Shown piece by piece: positions 7,521-62,074 of a stretch of 64,000 nt of DNA. Source of the DNA: Nemophila menziesii (Eukaryota; Streptophyta; Magnoliopsida; Boraginales; Hydrophyllaceae); the NCBI GenBank assembly GCA_029959085.1, contig JARWIR010000018.1, positions 186,001 to 250,000 on the forward strand. The letters run 5' to 3'. Below the pieces are notes generated by a model. The model had not been told where the DNA came from. It was given only the letters and a program-made list of their open reading frames with translations, and did not search any database. The position numbers and the translations under genes are program-made. The stretch's first letter is position 1. Each line of letters starts with the position of its first letter.

Positions 7521-8580
7521 TATCATCAATACTATTTTTTTGTCAAAATATATAATCAATACTATAAAATCAAACAAAACATAGGAATAAGTTAAAAAGA
7601 AAAGGACCAAAGCATAGTAATTTAAACAGTGTAGGTTTAATTAAGTATCTTCCCACTTTTACAAACGGTATCAATCAAATAAAAAAAAGGTATATTAAAA
7701 TATAGATTGGTCAATAATAAAAAAAATCAAGTAAATAAGTTCAATTACTAGAATAACTAAGAAAGATAAATCATGATAAAATTTTCTGAATATCATTATC
7801 AAACACCATCAAATGGACAGGATCCCGTGAAGGATTGTTTCTTCCTTTTAAACATCTATGGTTGTTAAAATAGTAATCCACTATGCAACAAATTAAACAA
7901 AAATGAAATATTCCATACAATATGTTGTATCAGTGGCTTCTGTAGCAGATTTTTGAGGCATAAGTGATGGCTCATTGTTAGACAAGTATTTCTAAATGTA
8001 ATTTAGACCTTTATACATTTAATTCTTATTAGTGACCAACACACTGTTCTGTATAATTTTTATTCTCCTCTTTCTACTACACCAAGTTGAAAAGACATGG
8101 ATACATATGTATGTTTTATCATATTTTAAATTAAAAAGTATTCACTTTTACCACTACTCGTACATCTAATTGAGTTGTATTCTCTATTTCTTTTCAAAAA
8201 AATTAAATTCTACTAATAGTATACATATTACAGTTTTTCTATGTTACTCTTTCTCTGTATGAAAGTTTAGAATAAATAAAATATTAGATAATGGTTACAA
8301 ATTTTTAAAATTCATATGATAATCTAAACCTCCTATGGAGTCCGAAATCAATAAATGATATTTTTAACATTATTCTTACATATTTTAAATTCTAAATATA
8401 ATTTATATTTATGTCAGATTATAAATTAAATAAATTACTAAAAGTATAAAAATATATTTTTAGTCTAAAACTAACCTTGTAGAAAAATGTCATGACCAAC
8501 GACCCACTTGTAAAATCATATTCCTCTACAAAATACTAATAAATTAAGAGCACAATTTCATCAAAATATTATGTTTTATA

Positions 8581-8690
8581 AATGAGTAGATTTGAAGTCT
8601 TGAGGTCTCGATGCACTATAACAGGGTTGCATGTGTGTAGGTACTTCATACCCTTTGCCGCATCGAGAGCAGTTATTGTTCTTCTTTTTT
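8581..8690 (-). pseudogene. Raf-like kinase exon relic, unit 2 copy b
   Basis: Second copy created by the internal duplication of unit 2. The minus strand keeps [21 protein letters not shown], but the ATG of the leading MALD is changed and the exon is cut off at 8581, before the DFG segment. Confidence 0.65.
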
Positions 8691-9067
8691 ATATGGTTAT
8701 TTTCACCGGGCTTGCACATCGAGCATACGTATATCATCAATACTATTTTTTGTCAAAATATATCATCAATACTATAAAATCAAACAAAACATAAAACCAA
8801 AAAATAGGAATAAGTTAAAAAGAAAAGAATCAAAGCGTAGTAATTTAAGCAGAGTAGGTTTACTTGAGTATCATCCCACTTTTATAATTTGTATCAATCA
8901 AATAAACAAAAGATATAGTAAAATATAGATTGGTCAATAATAAAAAAAATAATCAAGTAAATAAGTTCAATTACTAGACCATTATACATTTAATTCCTAT
9001 TAGTGACCAACACACTCTTCTGTATAATTTTTATTCTCCTCTTTCTACTACACCAAGTCGAAAAGAC

Positions 9068-9415
9068 ATGGATACATATGTATGTTTTTGTGAAGCCATA
9101 AATAATAAAACAGTAATTACTGAAGGTAAAAATGAAGATAAAGAAAAGAGGTTAATGGATATTTACTCAGGATGTGGAGGTATGAGTACTGGTCTAGTAC
9201 TTGGAGCTAACCGTGGTGGAGTTAAATTAATCAGGAAATGGGCTATATATTTAAACCCACCCGCATTCAAGAGTTTGAAACTAAACCATCCAGAAACACA
9301 TGTTAGAAATAAATCAGCTGAAGATTTACTTGCGTTACTGAAAGAATTGGAGAAGCTTTCGGAGTTGTTTAATCTAATTAGTGAAAAGGTGACTGAGGAG
9401 GAGGAAGAAAAATAA
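9068..9415 (+). pseudogene. Chromomethylase fragment: linker plus methyltransferase motif I
   Basis: A 115-residue open frame whose first ~6 residues come from the satellite. It continues into a chromomethylase (plant CHG-type cytosine-5 methyltransferase). Residues ~31-47 are the SAM-binding motif I, DIYSGCGGMSTGL. The following WAIYLN, LNHPETHVRN and AEDLLALLKE blocks match the CMT region after motif I. The acidic residue of motif II (WAVD/WAVE in active enzymes) is Tyr here. The frame stops after an acidic run, and EAGDSEVF, the start of the chromodomain linker, is readable past the stop. The catalytic Pro-Cys motif and the chromodomain are absent, so no enzyme can be made. The linker normally follows the BAH domain but here precedes it. 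Confidence 0.93.
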
Positions 9416-9428
9416 GAGGCAGGAGATA

Positions 9429-9953
9429 GTGAAGTATTTTTTTGGGTGTTTTACAGATGAAGAAGCTCGAAAGAGATGGCCTCAACGGTACGAAAAGAAA
9501 AAGGGAAATAGTGACATCATTCAAGCAAAGAAGCACTACTCTCAAGGCTTAGTGGACACAGAGACTTTCAATCTCCATTATAATGCTTTCGTGAAGGTAG
9601 GAAAAGGAAAAGACAAAGATTACTACATTTGTAATGTAGTGGAAATGTTCGAATCAGTAGATGACTATCTTTTCTGCACGGCTCAGTGGTACTACCGAGC
9701 AAAAGATACAGTCATTGATAAATGTGAAAATCACATACATGAGAAATGTGTGTTTCTCTCTGAGGTAAAAGATGACAATCCATTGGATTGTCTCATCAAG
9801 AAGTTAAACATCGTTCATATACCTAATAACGTTGATTCAGAAAAGAAAGCTCAATTAATATCGGAATGTGACTTTTACTATGACAAGCTTTATTTACTAC
9901 CATACATTACATTTATGAATGTTCTACCCAATAACTTATCCAAGAGTAATTAA
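9429..9953 (+). pseudogene. Chromomethylase BAH-domain fragment (plus-strand arm)
   Basis: Open frame of about 174 codons starting at a GTG; there is no ATG upstream. It reads DEEARKRWPQRY, then NAFVKVGKGKDKDYYICNV, EMFESVDDYLFCTAQWYYRA, EKCVFLSEVKDDNPLDCL and LPYITFMNVLPN. This is the BAH domain of chromomethylases, which binds H3K9me2 together with the chromodomain. The segment 'gtgttttacag' just before DEEA looks like the end of an intron, so the copy came from genomic DNA at that edge, though the ~500 bases after it carry no intron. After the stop the linker of CMT continues to about 10008. The frame is open, but the protein would be only an isolated BAH domain. Confidence 0.92.
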
Positions 9954-10080
9954 ACAAAATCAACTGTTTCATCTGAATGTGAAGCCATAAATATTAAAAC
10001 AGAAATTACTCATTTTCACCTTCTGTAATTTCTGTTTTATTATTTATGGCTTCACATTCAGATGAAACAGTTGATTTTGT

Positions 10081-10536
10081 TTAATTACTTTCGGATAAGT
10101 TATTGGGTAGAACATTCATAAATGTAATGTAGGGTAGTAAATAAAGCTTGTCATAGTAAAAGTCACATTCCGATATTAATTGAGCTTTCTTTTTTGAATC
10201 AACGTTATTAGGTATATGAATGATGTTTAGCTTCTTGATGAGACAATCCAATGGATTATCATCTTTTACCTCTAAGAGAAACACACATTTCTCATGTATG
10301 TGATCTTCACATTTATCAATGACTGTATCTTTTGCTCGGTAGTACCACTGAGCGGTGCAGAAAAGATAGTCATCATAGTCATCTACGGATTCGAACATTT
10401 CTACTACATTACAATTGTAGTAATCTTCGTCTTTTCCTGCCTTCACAAAAGCATTATTAACTCCACCATGGTTAGCTCCAAGTACTAGACCAGTTTTCAT
10501 ACCTCCACATCCTGAGTAAATATTCATTAACGTCAT
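10081..10536 (-). pseudogene. Chromomethylase fusion fragment: motif I joined to BAH (inverted arm)
   Basis: An uninterrupted 151-codon frame on the minus strand. It begins MTLMNIYSGCGGM, runs through LVLGANHGGV, and then joins in frame to NAFVKAGKDEDYY and the rest of the BAH domain. Relative to the plus-strand arm it lacks about 355 bases; the junction falls at 'gttaa|taatgc', where both sides share 'taa'. This copy is therefore a deletion derivative of the already permuted block. It is not expected to be a functional protein. Confidence 0.9.
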
Positions 10537-12289
10537 CTATTTATTTGATTTATAATATTTTAAATTAAAAAGTATTCTCTTTTACCACTATTTGCATATC
10601 TAATTGAGTTGTATTCTCTTTCTTTTCAAAAGAAAATTAAATTCTACTAATAGTACACATATGATAGTTTTTCTATGTCAAGCTTTCTCTATATGAAAGT
10701 TTAGAATAAATGAAAACAGTAGATAATGGTTACGAATTTAAAAAATTCATATGATAAACTAAACTTCCTATAGAGTCGAAAATTAATAAATCATATTTTT
10801 TACATTATTCTTACATATTTTAAACTCTAAATTTTATTTATATTTATGTCAAATTGTAAATTTAATAAATTAATAAATGTATAAAAACATATTTTTAGTC
10901 TAAAACTTACCTTGTAGAAGAAATGTCAAAACCAATGACCACTTGTGAAATCACTTTTCTGTACAAAATGCTAATAAATTAAGATCACAATTTCATTAAA
11001 ATATTATGTTTTAAGATCTAAATTGTTTCAAATAATGTATTTTCTGAAAATTAATATATAACAAATAAAAAAGATTGCATTGTAGTTAATAAAAGGTGTG
11101 CAAATTATACACAAAAATATTAGGTAATACCAAACAAATACAATTAATACAAATCAATTACCTGAAATTGATATTATAGGCTTTAGATCTTGGAGTTGGG
11201 CTTAGAAAAAAACATAAATAATATAATTTTCTAAAATAAATATAAATCTAGATCTACAAATGAGATGAAAAAATCAATTTCTTCTTTAATTTCACCTCTA
11301 GTAATCTAAATATCTCTTCAAACTTTTTGTAGGTTTAATCATAAAATTGTTGAATGAAAAAAAATTATTCGATTTTTGAAGATTGTAAGAAATGAATAGA
11401 CTAGGTGTATGATTATATTACTATGCTTGAGATAAATGAAAGCGTGATGAAATGAAAAACTAGGTCATAGAATTTTCTCTAAATATTATAATATTCTGTT
11501 ATTTTATGGGCTGGGCCTATTAGTTTAAATATATATATATATAAATTAGACCATTTTCATTGGGCCATATACGTATGTATAAATTGTGGGTTTTTATTTA
11601 TTCAAATATAATTTAAAATTTTAAAATAGTCTCGTGTTTTAATTATTTATGTGTATTCAAGGTGCAGGCATGTGTGTATATTATATAAAATCCATAATAT
11701 TTTGCAAGTTGAATAAAAATATTTAATTTAACGATATAATTATTTTAGTATTTTTTAGCGAAGTAAGTTGATATAAATGTCTTAGTAAAACTAGGAAAAA
11801 ATTAGTTCCTTTAGAATTTAGCTATCCATATATAAGTTATTTTCCGTGTGGTTGGGTCCTCAAACACATACTATAGTACCATGATATAATTTTATAATCC
11901 AATAGAACAATGACCAATATCACGTATATATGTATGATGAAAAACTAATCTTTTGAAGGTTTAATATACTATTATTATAAAAATGTTATGATAATATGAG
12001 TACATGGAGACAATTCCTACATAATTAATTTTAATTAATATTTATTAATCTAATCTTTATATTGGTAAAATTATCTATTCTTATTATGATTTGCCTAAAA
12101 AATATAATATTTATCTTTTGATACTTTAATCATTGATTATATTGAAAAATAAATAAATAAACTCCTTATTTGTTGAGATATCGTTTTTTATGAGAAATAA
12201 TAAAGTCTTTGGGAAATGTATGACATGTTACGCATAGATTCAATGGAAAGAATTGTACGAAAAATAAATAAATTTAACTTATTTAATAT

Positions 12290-48681: not shown

Positions 48682-49029
48682 ATGGATACATATGTATGTT
48701 TTTGTGAAGCCATAAATAATAAAACAGTAATTACTGAAGGTAAAAATGAAGATAAAGAAAAGAGGTTAATGGATATTTACTCAGGATGTGGAGGTATGAG
48801 TACTGGTCTAGTACTTGGAGCTAACCGTGGTGGAGTTAAATTAATCAGGAAATGGGCTATATATTTAAACCCACCCGCATTCAAGAGTTTGAAACTAAAC
48901 CATCCAGAAACACATGTTAGAAATAAATCAGCTGAAGATTTACTTGCATTACTGAAAGAATTGGAAAAGCTTTCGGAGTTGTTTAATCTAATTAGTGAAA
49001 AGGTGACTGAGGAGGAGGAAGAAAAATAA
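48682..49029 (+). pseudogene. Chromomethylase fragment, second copy: linker plus motif I
   Basis: 115-residue frame with the same amino-acid sequence as the copy at 9068, carrying the same satellite-derived start, the same Tyr in motif II and the same stop. Only a few silent changes are visible (e.g. gcattactg for gcgttactg), so the two C units share a recent origin. Confidence 0.92.
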
Positions 49030-49070
49030 GAGGCAGGAGATAGTGAAGTATTTTTTTTGGGTGTTTTATA

Positions 49071-49568
49071 GATGAAGAAGCTCGAAAGAGATGGCCTCAA
49101 CGGTACGAAAAGAAAAAGGGAAATAGTGACATCATTCAAGCAAAGAAGCACTACTCTCAAGGCTTAGTGGACACAGAGACTTTCAATCTCCATTATAATG
49201 CTTTCGTGAAGGTAGGAAAAGGAAAAGACAAAGATTACTACATTTGTAATGTAGTGGAAATGTTCGAATCAGTAGATGACTATCTTTTCTGCACGGCTCA
49301 GTGGTACTACCGAGCAAAAGATACAGTCATTGATAAATGTGAAAATCACATACATGAGAAATGTGTGTTTCTCTCTGAGGTAAAAGATGACAATCCATTG
49401 GATTGTCTCATCAAGAAGTTAAACATCGTTCATATACCTAATAACGTTGATTTAGAAAAGAAAGCTCAATTAATATCGGAATGTGACTTTTACTATGACA
49501 AGCTTTATTTACTACCGTACATTACATTTATGAATGTTCTACCCAATAACTTATCCGAGAGTAATTAA
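49071..49568 (+). pseudogene. Chromomethylase BAH fragment, second copy
   Basis: Same BAH segment as 9429-9953, ending NNLSESN. Upstream, a run of eight T (seven in the first copy) shifts the leading frame, and the acceptor-like 'cag' is 'tag', so DEEARKRW no longer joins the GTG-initiated frame. BAH itself remains open. The linker continues to about 49610, followed by the loop sequence and a stub of the inverted arm ending near 49659. Confidence 0.9.
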
Positions 49569-49659
49569 ACAAAATCAACTGTTTCATCTGAATGTGAAGC
49601 CATAAATATTAGAACAGAAATTACTCATTTTCACCTTCTGTAATTTCTGTTTTATTATA

Positions 49660-51875
49660 TGAATTCTATCTACTCTAACACTTTCAATCAGAGGTGCGAG
49701 ATATGAATTATTGGTGTAGATTGTTTAATTATGCGATAATTACTGGTTTTGATTAAAGAATATGTAAATTTAAAGACATAATCAGATTCATCGGATGCTA
49801 AAAACGAAGTTATACTGCGGTAAATCAATTTATTTGGCAGATGTGTGAGGCTACAAATCTTGTAGTTATATGTAGTAGTTAATAAAGAGTATAAGTCGAG
49901 GAAACTTTAGGTTTTATTCATTTCTATATTGTGGTAAGATTGTTGGTTATACGCAACACGATAAGCTTTTTCGCCACCAACCAAAGAAATATACATGTAT
50001 ACACCGTTAAATTAATATAAAATTGAGAAGATAAAGTGTTGATCTATACAAATTTGTTATCATCTGAAGCGATTCGGTATATGCAGAGTACAACTTTAAT
50101 AATTTGTTATAGATAAATATGGATTATACAAAAAAGAGAGATGTAAAAAAGGAAAATATAGGATCAAACAAAATCAAAGTACAATACTGAAAGCGAATAA
50201 AGGGTTTCGATCTCCTTTATTAGGGGATACTTAGGTGATAGATCACCAAGGGAAAATCATATTCTTTAACTTCTTGATGAAGGAGAATTTGGGTATAACA
50301 CAGTGATCCAAATATCAACAAACATTATTCAAATGTTTCCAATACGCATAAAATATAATAGTAGACTCTAAATCCTACCAAATGTTATCATACACCTATG
50401 TTTAGTTGGAACAATTGGAGTATCGAGCCTTAGGATAAGCTTAAGCCCATATGGTCATCATTTATGTAGAGGAAAATTATTAACTTAGAACATAAAATAC
50501 ACAAACATTATAATTAATAAATAGTGTGCCGCACATGGGAATAAATAATCAAGTTAAATTATAAATTCACTTAAGCCCTACTAACTCTTTAGCTATGATC
50601 CCCTACGACACTTAGCCATGACATATAGAAACAACATAGAGTGTAAATCCAAACCAGAAAGAACAAAAATACATCAAACTAAACTAAATACTCTAGAAAA
50701 ATGAATAATTTTTTTTATTAATAATAGAAAATTGTTATTTCTTATGAAATGCCAATATCTCCTTTTCTAACATAATGTTGTATTAAGGGCTGGAAACCTA
50801 AATATTACCAATATATCAAGTAATATAAAAAAATAACACGGTAAAAAAAATCAAAAGGGTCACAAAAATTAGTAAGAACACTATATTATTCAGACACATC
50901 AATGTAGGTCAAATTTCATAAATCTTGCTGATAAAATTTTGGATAAGATATAGAAAAGGTTTGTAATAATTTTATGAATTTTTATATTTTATAGGTAAGA
51001 ATACAAGAGAGTTCAAGATTACGTATAAATTCCTCCATATGCGCATCCATATAATATAATTTATCGGGTAATATTTAGTTGGTAATATAGTCGTAGTAGT
51101 GCGAAAAAGCTATAGAAAAGTCACATGTTTAATGTCAATATTCCAAACCTCGGGCAAACAAAATTATCTCAATTATGTTGTTTTTAATGATCATAATTAT
51201 ATCCTTAAACTCGTGCACTCTATTTACAAAACTGTGTAAATTGGAATAACCCACATGATTGAAAGGTAGTCCATCTGTACAATTGCTACAAAATTTAATG
51301 TCTATTGAGATGTTCATGGTATGAGGTGTTTTTCAGTCTATTTGGGGATAATAATCATCTGTTCCTAAGTTTTTATTAAGGAGTGATGCATCTATTTCTT
51401 GCTGCTTTTAAAATGAAAGTGATGAAGTGAGGGACTCTCATTCAGATACAATCAGAGAATGATCAATTGATTTCTGAGGGTGAAGTAGGTTTTGCGAAGA
51501 GGAGCTTGCGTGAGAGGTGGCTAAGAAATGAAATGTTTAGTTAGAAATTTAAATACATAAGATAAGGGTATTTTATGAAAATATTATGTCGAAAACCAGT
51601 ATTATTGCTTGTTATGTGTTCTCGAGGAAGTAATACGAAGAAGTGTGTCAGCAAGCGTTACTGGCCCATGATTGTCAAAAAGAGGGTTGGATATATTTTG
51701 CATATTCTCCAAATGAAAGATTGACATTATTACTTTTTGTCGTAATTAATTTCTGAATTCTTTCGGTTCCCAAGAACAATTATTCTAATAAAGACCACAC
51801 ATTTATGTGATCTACCCGTGTTTATTCAAACTACTAATGATAAATGTCTGTAATACTTCTTTGATATCTTGACTA
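49660..51875. other. Unrelated 2.2-kb segment replacing the inverted CMT arm
   Basis: This sequence has no match elsewhere in the window and no gene I recognise. It starts right after 'taatttctgttttatta', inside the stub of the inverted arm, and ends where unit sequence resumes (aaaagaaaatataaatctag). No terminal inverted repeats, poly(A) or long frames were found; the longest frame, on the minus strand near 51.2 kb, is about 60 codons and featureless. A small repeat 'ctaatgataaa' occurs twice near the right end (51833 and 51873). Confidence 0.6.
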
Positions 51876-54800
51876 ATGATAAAAGAAAATATAAATCTAG
51901 ATGTACAAATGAGATGAAAAAATCAATTTCTTCTTTAATTTCACCTCTAGTAATCTAAATATCTCTTCAAACTTTTTGTAGGTTTAATCATAAAATTGTT
52001 GAATGAAAAAAAATTATTCGATTTTTGAAGATTGTAAGAAATGAATAGACTAGGTGTATGATTATATTCCTATGCTAGAGATAAATGGAGGCGTGATAAA
52101 ATGAAAAACTAGGCCCAGCCTATTAGTTGAAATACATAAGAAAAATTAGACCATTTTCATTGGGCCATATACGTATGTCTAAATTGTGGTTTTTTATCTA
52201 TTCAAATATAATATTTAATATAAAATACTCTCGTGTTTTAATTTATTTATGTGTAAAATTTATAAGATCCCTAATATTTTGCAAGTTGAAAAATAAATAT
52301 ATAATTTAACGATATAATTATTTTAGTATTTGTTAACGGATTACGTTGATATAAATGTCTTAGTAGAACTAGGAAAAAATTAGTTCCATTAGAATTTAGC
52401 TATCCAGATATAAGTTATTTTCCTTGTGACTGGGTCCTCAAACACATACTATATTATCTTGATATAATTTTATAAACTAGATGATAGAACAATGAACAAT
52501 ATCACGTATATATGTATGATGAAAAACTAATCTTACGGAAGTTTAATATACTATTATTTTAAAAATATTTATGATAATATGAGTATGGAGACAATTCTTA
52601 CATAACTAATTTTAAATAATATTTATTAATCTTACACATTACATGAAGTATTTCCAAAAATGTTATACCTTCGAAATTCTAAACAATACCAATTGACCTC
52701 CCACGTTTCGTATACCCCGTCACGTAATGAAAATCCAACAATACTACATGGCTCCTACAGTTGTACGCGTAATACAAATTCACAATAAGCCAAAAAAATG
52801 GACAAGCACAAAACCACGATCGATGAAAAAAAAGACAATATTGGATCCAACAATACATTCAATTTGGATCCTCCTTCTTCAATTTCATTTATGGCTGACA
52901 ACAATGAGAATCGAAACCTAACATAATATATTGAAACATAAGGCTGATTTTGAATTATCTACCATTTAGTTTATGGGGTATATGAAATATATTGAATGAG
53001 TGAAATTTTTTGAGAAGAACAAAAACTTTTATTTGTGTTTAGTTGTCATAGATCTATTGTATCCACAAAATCTTTAATACCAAAATCACCAACCTTAACA
53101 TGTCAGATTTTATAAACAGAGTAGATTTGGAGTCTTGAGGTCTGGATGCACTATAACAGGGTTGCATGTGTGCAGGTACTTCATACCCTCTGCCACATCG
53201 AGAGCCATTTCTATTCTTCTTTTTTATATGGTTATTTTGATCAGGCTAGCACATCGAGCGTACGTATATCATCAATACTATTTTTTGTTAAAATATATCA
53301 TCAATACTATAAAATCAAACCAAAAATAAAACCAAAAAATAGGAATAAGTTAAAAAGAAAAGGACCAAATCATAGTAATTTAAGGAGTGTAGGTTTACTT
53401 AAGTAACTTCCCACTTTTACAAACTATATCTATCAAATAAACAAAAGATATAGTAAAATCTAGATTGGTCAATAAAAAAAAAATTAAGTAAATAAGTTCA
53501 ATTAGTAGACCAACAAAGAAAGATAAATCAAGATAAAAATCTCTGAATACCATTGTCAAACACCGTCAAAGGGACAAGATCATGTGAAAGATTGTTTCTT
53601 CTTTTTAAACTTCTATGGTTGTTTAAATAGTAATCCACTTTGCAGCAAATTGAATTAAAACAAAATGTTCCATCGATATGTTGTATCAGTGGCTGCTGTA
53701 GCAGATATTTGATCCAACTGTAAAAGGAATAAGTGATGGTTCATTGTTAGACAAGTATTTCTGCAAGTAATTTAGACAATTATACATTTAATTACTATTA
53801 TTTAACAACACACTTTTCTGTATAATTTTTATTCTCCTCTATCTACTACACCAAGTAGAAAACACATGGATGCATTTCTATTTTTTATCATATTTTAAAT
53901 TAATAAGTATTTTCTTTTACCACTACTTGTATATCTAATTGAGTTGTATTCTCTATTTCTTTCAAAAGAAAATTAAATTTAACTAATAGTATACATATTA
54001 TAGTTTTTTATGTTACTCTTTCTTAGTATGAATGTTTAGAATAAATGAAAATAGTAGATTAAAAATTACAAATTTAAAAAATTGATATGATAAACTAAAC
54101 CTCCAATGGAGTCGGAAATCAATAAATCATATTTTTTACATTATTCTTACATATTTTAAACTCTAAATAAAATTAATTAATAAAAGTATAAAAATATATT
54201 TTTAGTCTAAAACTTACCTCGTAGATGAAATGTCATGACCAACGACCACTTGTGAAATCATTTTCCTGTACGAATACTAATAAATTAAGATCACAATATC
54301 ATCAAAATATTATGTTTTAAGATCTAAATTTTTTCAAATAATGTGATTTCTAAGAATTAATATGTAAGACAAATAAATAAGATTGCATTCTAATTATTAA
54401 AAGGTGTGCAGATTATACACAAAACTATTAGGTAATACAAAAAAAATACATTCAAAAGAAATCACGTACCTGAAAGTGATATTATAGGCTGTAAATCTTA
54501 GATTTGGGCGTAGAAAAAAACATAAATAATATGATTATCTAAAAGAAAATATAAATCTAGATGTACAAATGAGACGAAAAAAACAATTTCTTCAAACTTT
54601 TTGTATGTTTAATCATAAAATTGTTGAATGAAAAAAATAATTCAATTTTTGAAGAATGTAAGAAATGAATAGACTAGGTGTATGATTATATTAAGGCTTG
54701 ACATAAATGAGGGCGTGATAAAATGAAAAACTAGGTCATAGAATTTTCCCAAAATATTATAATCTTTTGTTGTTTTATGGGCCGAGCCTATTAGTTGAAA

Positions 54801-61539: not shown

Positions 61540-62035
61540 GCAGTGCATTTTTTGCATAATATAGGGACCTATGGTGCAACTTTTTCATAATATAGGGACC
61601 ATAAATGTATCATTTATTTTTTGTTTTTCTTTTACAAATCATACAATGCTAATGGAAGCTTTTACCGTATGAAAAGTGAGGCTGGTTAGTTCTTTTTTTG
61701 TTTTTCTTTATTATTTATTTTTTGCACAGGGACCTATAATGCGATTTTTGCACAATACAGTGACTTATAGTGCAATTTATGCACAATACATGAACCTGTG
61801 GGATTTTTCGCATCAGGAGAGCGACTATTGTGCACTTTTCTTCTACTACATTTTGCATACTATAGGGACATGCAGTGCAATTTTGCATACTATAGGGACC
61901 TACCGTGCATTTTTTCATAATATAGGGACCTGCAGTACATTTTTTGCATAATATAGGGACCTCAAGTGTAATCTTTTTATAACATATTGACCTACAGTAC
62001 ATTCTTTTCATAATATAGGGACCTGTAGTGCATTT
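61540..62035 (+). repeat. Degenerate minisatellite with 'atagggacct' core
   Basis: At least nine imperfect copies of a ~31-37-base motif of the form 'gtgcattttttgcataatatagggacct', in two clusters (61540-61610 and 61725-62035). Frames on either strand through it are repeat translations with recurring short motifs, not genes. Confidence 0.8.
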
Positions 62036-62074
62036 TTTAAGATTAAACTCTGATTCTATAACTTTGCACTGCAG

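Follow-up and report, generated by a model that had tools for sequence, protein, structure and literature searches.

A multicopy hairpin of intronless CMT3 sequence in satellite DNA of Nemophila menziesii

A large-unit satellite of Nemophila menziesii carries long hairpins made from the gene of a repeat-methylating enzyme, the chromomethylase CMT3, and some 21-nt stretches of these hairpins are identical to an apparently intact gene of the host. The hairpin sequence is intronless and stems from a CMT3 transcript, shares a permuted domain order with longer copies elsewhere in the genome, and has been inverted and multiplied; we infer the order of these steps and the route of insertion. The hairpin is probably a passively amplified CMT3 retro-pseudogene, a passenger of the satellite which, if transcribed, would give rise to siRNAs acting mainly on the hairpin itself. 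The window, that is, the whole stretch of 64,000 nucleotides (nts) analyzed here, corresponds to C89:186001-250000, and searches for related copies covered the 1.517-Gb assembly of 361 contigs.

An earlier note on this DNA had described a natural hairpin consisting of two opposite-strand copies separated by a 17-nt loop (Table 1). The hairpin is real. Its two sides match at 502 of 526 aligned positions in a global alignment, and the RNA of 9560-10475 is predicted to fold with −671 kcal/mol and 421 base pairs, compared to a mean of −183 kcal/mol (sd 6.5) among 20 shuffles of the same segment, a z of −75 that excludes chance. By both arm alignment and RNA folding, however, the loop measures 15 rather than 17 nts. 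The inner arms, 9660-10009 and 10025-10374, are 97% complementary over 350 nts across a spacing of 15 nts. The outer parts are asymmetric. There, two further inverted blocks continue outward (9605-9668/10375-10438, 94%; 9138-9225/10457-10544, 91%), but the right arm lacks ~354 nts of the left (about 9226-9579), and the left arm extends ~49 nts beyond the right. The right arm additionally bears a 9-nt tandem duplication and the left arm 6 extra nts, neither insertion being present in host CMT3. The same 33-bp linker piece is found at either end of the left arm (9089-9121 and 9978-10010), as expected after tandem duplication or passage through a circular intermediate.

Table 1. Features of the CMT3 hairpin, its second copy, and the adjoining satellite, in window positions
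Positions	Strand	Feature	Remarks
8575..8673	−	CTR1-like (Raf-like) kinase frame fragment within satellite unit	PDB chain 3ppz, E 2.5e-8
8975..9088	+	Satellite adjoining hairpin on the left	Copy of 8004-8117, 96%
9089-10009		Left arm, whole	921 nt
9089..9428	+	Left arm part 1: linker, motif I, and acidic tract of processed CMT3 copy	Host CDS 819-1117/1121 and 1172-1210/1221; ~50 nt of acidic tract deleted
9429..10009	+	Left arm part 2: BAH domain and linker of processed CMT3 copy	Host CDS 275-848
10010-10545		Right side including loop	536 nt
10010..10024	none	Hairpin loop	15 nt
10025..10545	−	Right arm: inverted motif I start and BAH copy	
10546..12286	+	Satellite resuming right of hairpin	
48703..49658	+	Second copy, cut off 19 nt into right arm (left arm and loop kept)	

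The arms had been attributed to chromomethylase motif I and BAH sequence, an identification that is correct. The frame of the left arm contains a BAH domain (PF01426, E 2.1e-10), while that of the right arm scores 30.7 bits, marginally below the Pfam cut-off of 30.8; in the motif I frame of 115 aa, Pfam detected no methyltransferase domain. PDB chains 4fsx, 7ubu, and 9mvy match the arms with E values of 5e-33 (BAH) and 2e-20 (motif I). These chains carry the label DNA (cytosine-5)-methyltransferase 1, and we take them to be maize ZMET2. In both arms motif I precedes BAH, the reverse of the native chromomethylase, in which BAH comes first. The only ATG, GTG, or TTG frames of at least 130 aa in the 64 kb are the BAH frames of the two copies and of the right arm.

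A search for the host gene using the chromodomain/methyltransferase segment of Lithospermum CMT3 as the query returned at least 126 matches, with 97 of 576 first-look candidates scored. Three loci, on contigs C324, C264, and C318, match exon by exon, and many others are intronless and interrupted by stops. The gene model of the C324 locus (L017; about 2,216,872-2,221,699) comprises 20 exons and 19 introns and encodes an 869-aa protein devoid of internal stops, an apparently intact CMT3 gene; the CMT3 of Salvia miltiorrhiza also has 19 introns (PMC5842782). In a phylogenetic tree, the array copy and the host gene form a group (1.0) whose neighbors are two Lithospermum CMT3s (0.992), which points to Boraginales as the likely order of the plant; another tree likewise places the array copy next to Lithospermum (0.915). 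A first placement by score, with Lamiales as the nearest relatives, was not upheld by these trees. A proposed sign of decay was likewise abandoned: of 111 sites that are constant in 13 Lamiales CMT3s, 23 are changed in the array copy, but 22 are changed in Lithospermum CMT3 as well, and 13 of 100 other proteins break at least the array copy's share, so the test shows no decay.

The left arm crosses all seven host exon junctions within its span without an intron, two in part 1 and five in part 2, and therefore descends from a spliced CMT3 mRNA. When the arms were aligned to the host gene, as the earlier note had suggested, the left arm proved 85-87% identical to the coding sequence (286 of 338 sites or 84.6% in part 1; 497 of 570 or 87.2% in part 2), and the BAH part of the right arm is identical at 376 of 439 sites, the loop being counted in the alignment. 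As in a processed pseudogene, the coding sequence is broken, by a stop at codon 264, the permuted order, and deletions. Neither a poly-A tail nor an agent of insertion was identified for the CMT3 copies. A T-rich stretch near 9440, considered as a possible intron end, was rejected after alignment to the host gene placed it in coding sequence of the N-terminal flank.

The same in-frame TAA at codon 264 that is present in the window arms is common to nine longer intronless CMT3 loci (L020 to L028), located on contigs C287, C134, C340, and C26. All nine share a 3′ end at CDS 2594-2597, before the stop codon, and the BAH segment starts at CDS 294-295 in the eight that have BAH within the stretch read; in L025 this stretch extends just from motif I to the C-terminus. 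Their usual order runs from motif I to the C-terminus, then through a second acidic tract and BAH to an inverted motif I start, with some single loci truncated or lacking a piece. Most longer intronless copies end in this inverted motif I start. Further intronless matches lie on C330, and a dense intronless cluster is found at about C340:11.30-11.62 Mb.

The substitution history of these copies falls into two phases. Between host CMT3 and the majority sequence of the nine long loci, 192 of 2289 sites differ, and 136 of these are third codon positions. Polarized by the outgroup L018 (64 sites lacking an L018 base), 54 changes belong to the element branch (39 synonymous, 15 nonsynonymous) and 53 to the host branch (46 synonymous, 7 nonsynonymous), with 21 changes left unassigned. 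The 39 synonymous versus 15 nonsynonymous changes indicate that the element lineage was under coding constraint until shortly before amplification, and this constraint implies a direct parent other than the C324 gene in its present form. A putative paralogue, homoeologue, or working retrogene would fit as the constrained source; no parent carrying introns turned up for these copies. The changes after amplification, by their codon distribution, look neutral and are roughly even: private changes at positions 1/2/3 number 21/25/24 in L020, 20/24/24 in L021, 22/17/28 in L024, 43/33/31 in L028, 13/15/11 in the left arm, and 8/8/12 in the right arm. The left and right arms differ from each other at 27 positions distributed 9/8/10, a few of the outermost being of uncertain alignment. 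C-to-T changes amount to 0.054 per site and copy in CG, 0.039 in CHG, and 0.021 in CHH contexts, with the reverse transitions (A-to-G/T-to-C) at 0.0075; pooled over the nine loci and the two window arms, these rates are rough, since the copies are related and some are incomplete. Such dependence of C-to-T decay on CG and CHG context indicates that the copies are probably methylated, at CHG sites included.

The repeat array in which the earlier note had placed the hairpin is a higher-order tandem array with periods of ~5 and ~10 kb in the window. The kinase fragment in the hairpin-bearing unit indicates that the satellite took up more than one gene piece; stretches matching this fragment occur in other satellite units. 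In the second copy, the hairpin breaks off after 19 nts of the right arm, and unrelated sequence follows to about 51880. At 49659-51880, ~2.2 kb of non-repeated sequence takes the place of the right arm and of part of the satellite. Genome-wide, a search that scored 40 of 141 candidates, and whose counts are therefore lower bounds, found at least 78 arm matches, with at least 40 left arms (at least 37 on C89, 2 on C111, and 1 on C143) and at least 38 right arms. A right arm is retained beside 38 of the 40 left arms found, the two unpaired ones being C89:235195, the second copy of the window, and C89:920670. Hairpin spacing on C89 is 7.23-7.36 kb in 23 of 36 cases, the tandem, homogenized units of a large-unit satellite or higher-order repeat. 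Across 13 distinct hairpins at 13 loci, the window's own included, the inner arms are invariably 95.4-96.1% identical. The inner arms of the window's hairpin differ at 17 sites; nine other hairpins have an identical pair at 12 of these, and three more do so at 8-9 of 16. Given this sharing, a single hairpin was multiplied and later changed slightly. Satellite flanks around the longer CMT copies L020 to L028 occur in both direct and inverted orientation, that of L024 being flanked on both sides, and with flanks in both orientations, parts of the array look like large palindromes.

These findings are best read as the passive amplification of a processed pseudogene. A spliced CMT3 mRNA would have been reverse-transcribed, and its cDNA (codons about 98-866) would have entered an AT-rich large-unit satellite, inside which rearrangement would have placed motif I before BAH. 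In one lineage, the methyltransferase part would then have been deleted between two acidic-tract copies, and an inverse duplication of the remainder, with its own deletion in the right arm, would have produced the hairpin, which was presumably multiplied along with the ~7.3-kb satellite unit. A read-through transcript would fold into dsRNA of more than 400 bp and could be diced to siRNAs, which would mainly direct methylation of the array itself. Given the exact 21-mers in common, side effects on CMT3 in trans are possible, but the analysis gave no sign of their selection. Passive amplification agrees with arms that look neutral, with the signature of methylation, with a second copy in decay, and with the kinase fragment within the satellite unit; the keeping of 38 of 40 right arms together with the exact CMT3 21-mers could also reflect selection.

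How far the arms match their putative target bears directly on the principal alternative. Compared to the host CMT3 coding sequence with assumed flanks, 4 of 320 21-mers are exact in the motif I part and 55 of 561 in the BAH part, hence 59 of 881 for the left arm, and 19 of 516 in the right arm with the loop, or 78 of 1397 over all three arm parts. With up to two mismatches the counts are 74, 265, and 156, respectively, while a shuffled arm and a satellite stretch as controls each gave 0 of 561, both exactly and with up to two mismatches. The longest exact match spans 47 nts. None of the arms' 21-mers occurs exactly in the unspliced loci L018 and L019. Distinct exact 21-mers in common with CMT3 number 64 for the window hairpin and 530 for the nine long loci together. 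The earlier note had conceded that its proposal would fall if the arms were too diverged from the active gene to target it; at 85-87% identity, with exact 21-mers present and controls at 0, they are not. If transcribed and diced, the hairpin could thus target CMT3 by virtue of the 21-mers the two have in common.

On this basis the satellite could be a trans-acting antagonist: the array would be transcribed, its siRNAs would cut CMT3 transcripts or methylate the gene, CHG methylation would fall, and spread of the satellite would be favored. The 21-mer matches over controls at 0, the 47-nt match, and the presence of at least 38 paired hairpins speak for such an activity, as does the rice precedent of miR820 against OsDRM2 (PMC3459959). 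We nevertheless consider it rather unlikely. The codon pattern has been neutral since amplification, the CG- and CHG-linked C-to-T decay suggests methylated, silent copies, and the right arm was lost in the second copy of the window and is missing in 2 of 40 copies overall. Moreover, the arms are no closer to CMT3 than other parts are: the window arms diverge from it by 13.3% and 15.2%, the equivalent part of the nine long loci by 11.8-14.6%, and the methyltransferase part of those loci by 9.1-10.8%. An adapted antagonist is further disfavored by the unrelated CTR1-like kinase piece sharing the satellite unit. It is correspondingly doubtful that the satellite has turned the host's CHG-maintenance gene into a multicopy source of dsRNA whose siRNAs damp CMT3, relax the H3K9me2-CMT3 loop, and so favor its own spread; such damping would perhaps be confined to particular tissues, for example pollen or endosperm.

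Alternatively, a mobile element (Helitron, Mutator-like, fold-back, or LINE-borne) may have captured and spread the CMT cDNA and left the satellite as its debris. In favor, intronless copies lie on several contigs and have common flanks in direct and inverted orientation, and ~5 kb from one hairpin, a frame on C89 near 1.190 Mb (L032:3-755) contains DUF4283 (Pfam, E 6.3e-10), a domain known from plant LINE-like elements. This frame is possibly a LINE-like remnant. However, no transposase or reverse transcriptase was recognized by Pfam in nine window frames and five L032/L033 frames, or by eye in other frames, no target-site duplication is clear by eye at the two hairpin edges, and the flank limit near L020:1776, once a candidate for a common element end, was rejected as an AT microsatellite, all of which leaves capture by a mobile element quite unlikely. 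Two below-cut-off Pfam matches in the five L032/L033 frames, one labeled Cas1, were taken as chance.

Inverted-repeat relatives of genes, such as PAI and OGI, the latter an inverted repeat itself, tune host genes elsewhere. By analogy, hairpin siRNAs could have been selected to tune CMT3 for the benefit of the host, and the same exact 21-mers and 47-nt match to CMT3 can be adduced in favor; with arms that look neutral, a high copy number in satellite DNA, and the right arm absent in 2 of 40 copies, a selected feedback seems very improbable. An assembly artefact is hardly credible: although long satellite arrays are hard to assemble and the 27-Mb contig ends not far from the window, a fold-back read would make the arms identical, whereas they differ at 24 of 526 positions plus indels, and other hairpins, spread over three contigs, show most of these differences again.

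Retrocopying, satellite DNA, and inverted duplication are each ordinary, and it is their combination and the target that are unusual. To our knowledge, few repeats act against their own silencing machinery. The closest parallels are miR820, which is carried by rice CACTA transposons and for which targeting of, and co-evolution with, OsDRM2 were demonstrated (PMC3459959); Mu killer of maize, a partial inverted duplication of a coding sequence (PMC3440606); OGI of persimmon, which represses MeGI in sex determination (PMC7048303); and the retrotransposons of dinoflagellates and charophytes that carry cytosine methyltransferases (PMC5890265). Like miR820, the hairpin is repeat-borne and potentially a source of small RNAs against a host DNA methyltransferase, with near-perfect matches to its mRNA (the 78 exact 21-mers of 1397); however, miR820 is a microRNA directed at OsDRM2, whereas here a long hairpin of the target gene itself, CMT3, resides in satellite DNA. 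Like Mu killer, it has long, near-perfect inverted arms of a coding sequence, partially duplicated and potentially yielding a long hairpin RNA, but it exists in many copies and matches a gene of host silencing rather than a transposase gene. With OGI it shares descent as a pseudogene relative of a working gene, although the copies here look neutral. Whereas miR820 is a demonstrated small RNA, Mu killer an effective silencer of its transposase gene, and OGI a repressor of MeGI, any such action of the present hairpin is hypothetical. The dinoflagellate and charophyte elements similarly place methyltransferase sequence in multicopy DNA; they carry methyltransferase genes, in contrast to the broken, rearranged processed pseudogenes here, where no element protein was found in the frames examined. 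No description of CMT-derived satellites or hairpins was found in the part of the open-access literature surveyed.

A satellite counter-attack by RNA interference thereby becomes testable with small RNA, RNA-seq, and bisulfite data, and if true would constitute a repeat-borne RNAi antagonist of chromomethylation built from the target gene itself. Even if passive, the array preserves an instance in which the mRNA of a silencing gene was retrocopied, permuted, inverted, and multiplied within satellite DNA, and its copies could mislead efforts to count CMT genes or to map small RNAs and methylation in this plant. As for the remainder of the window, Rfam (at the gathering threshold) and tRNA scans of its sequence and Pfam searches of six other frames came back empty, and a minisatellite of 31-bp units occupies 61726-62038.
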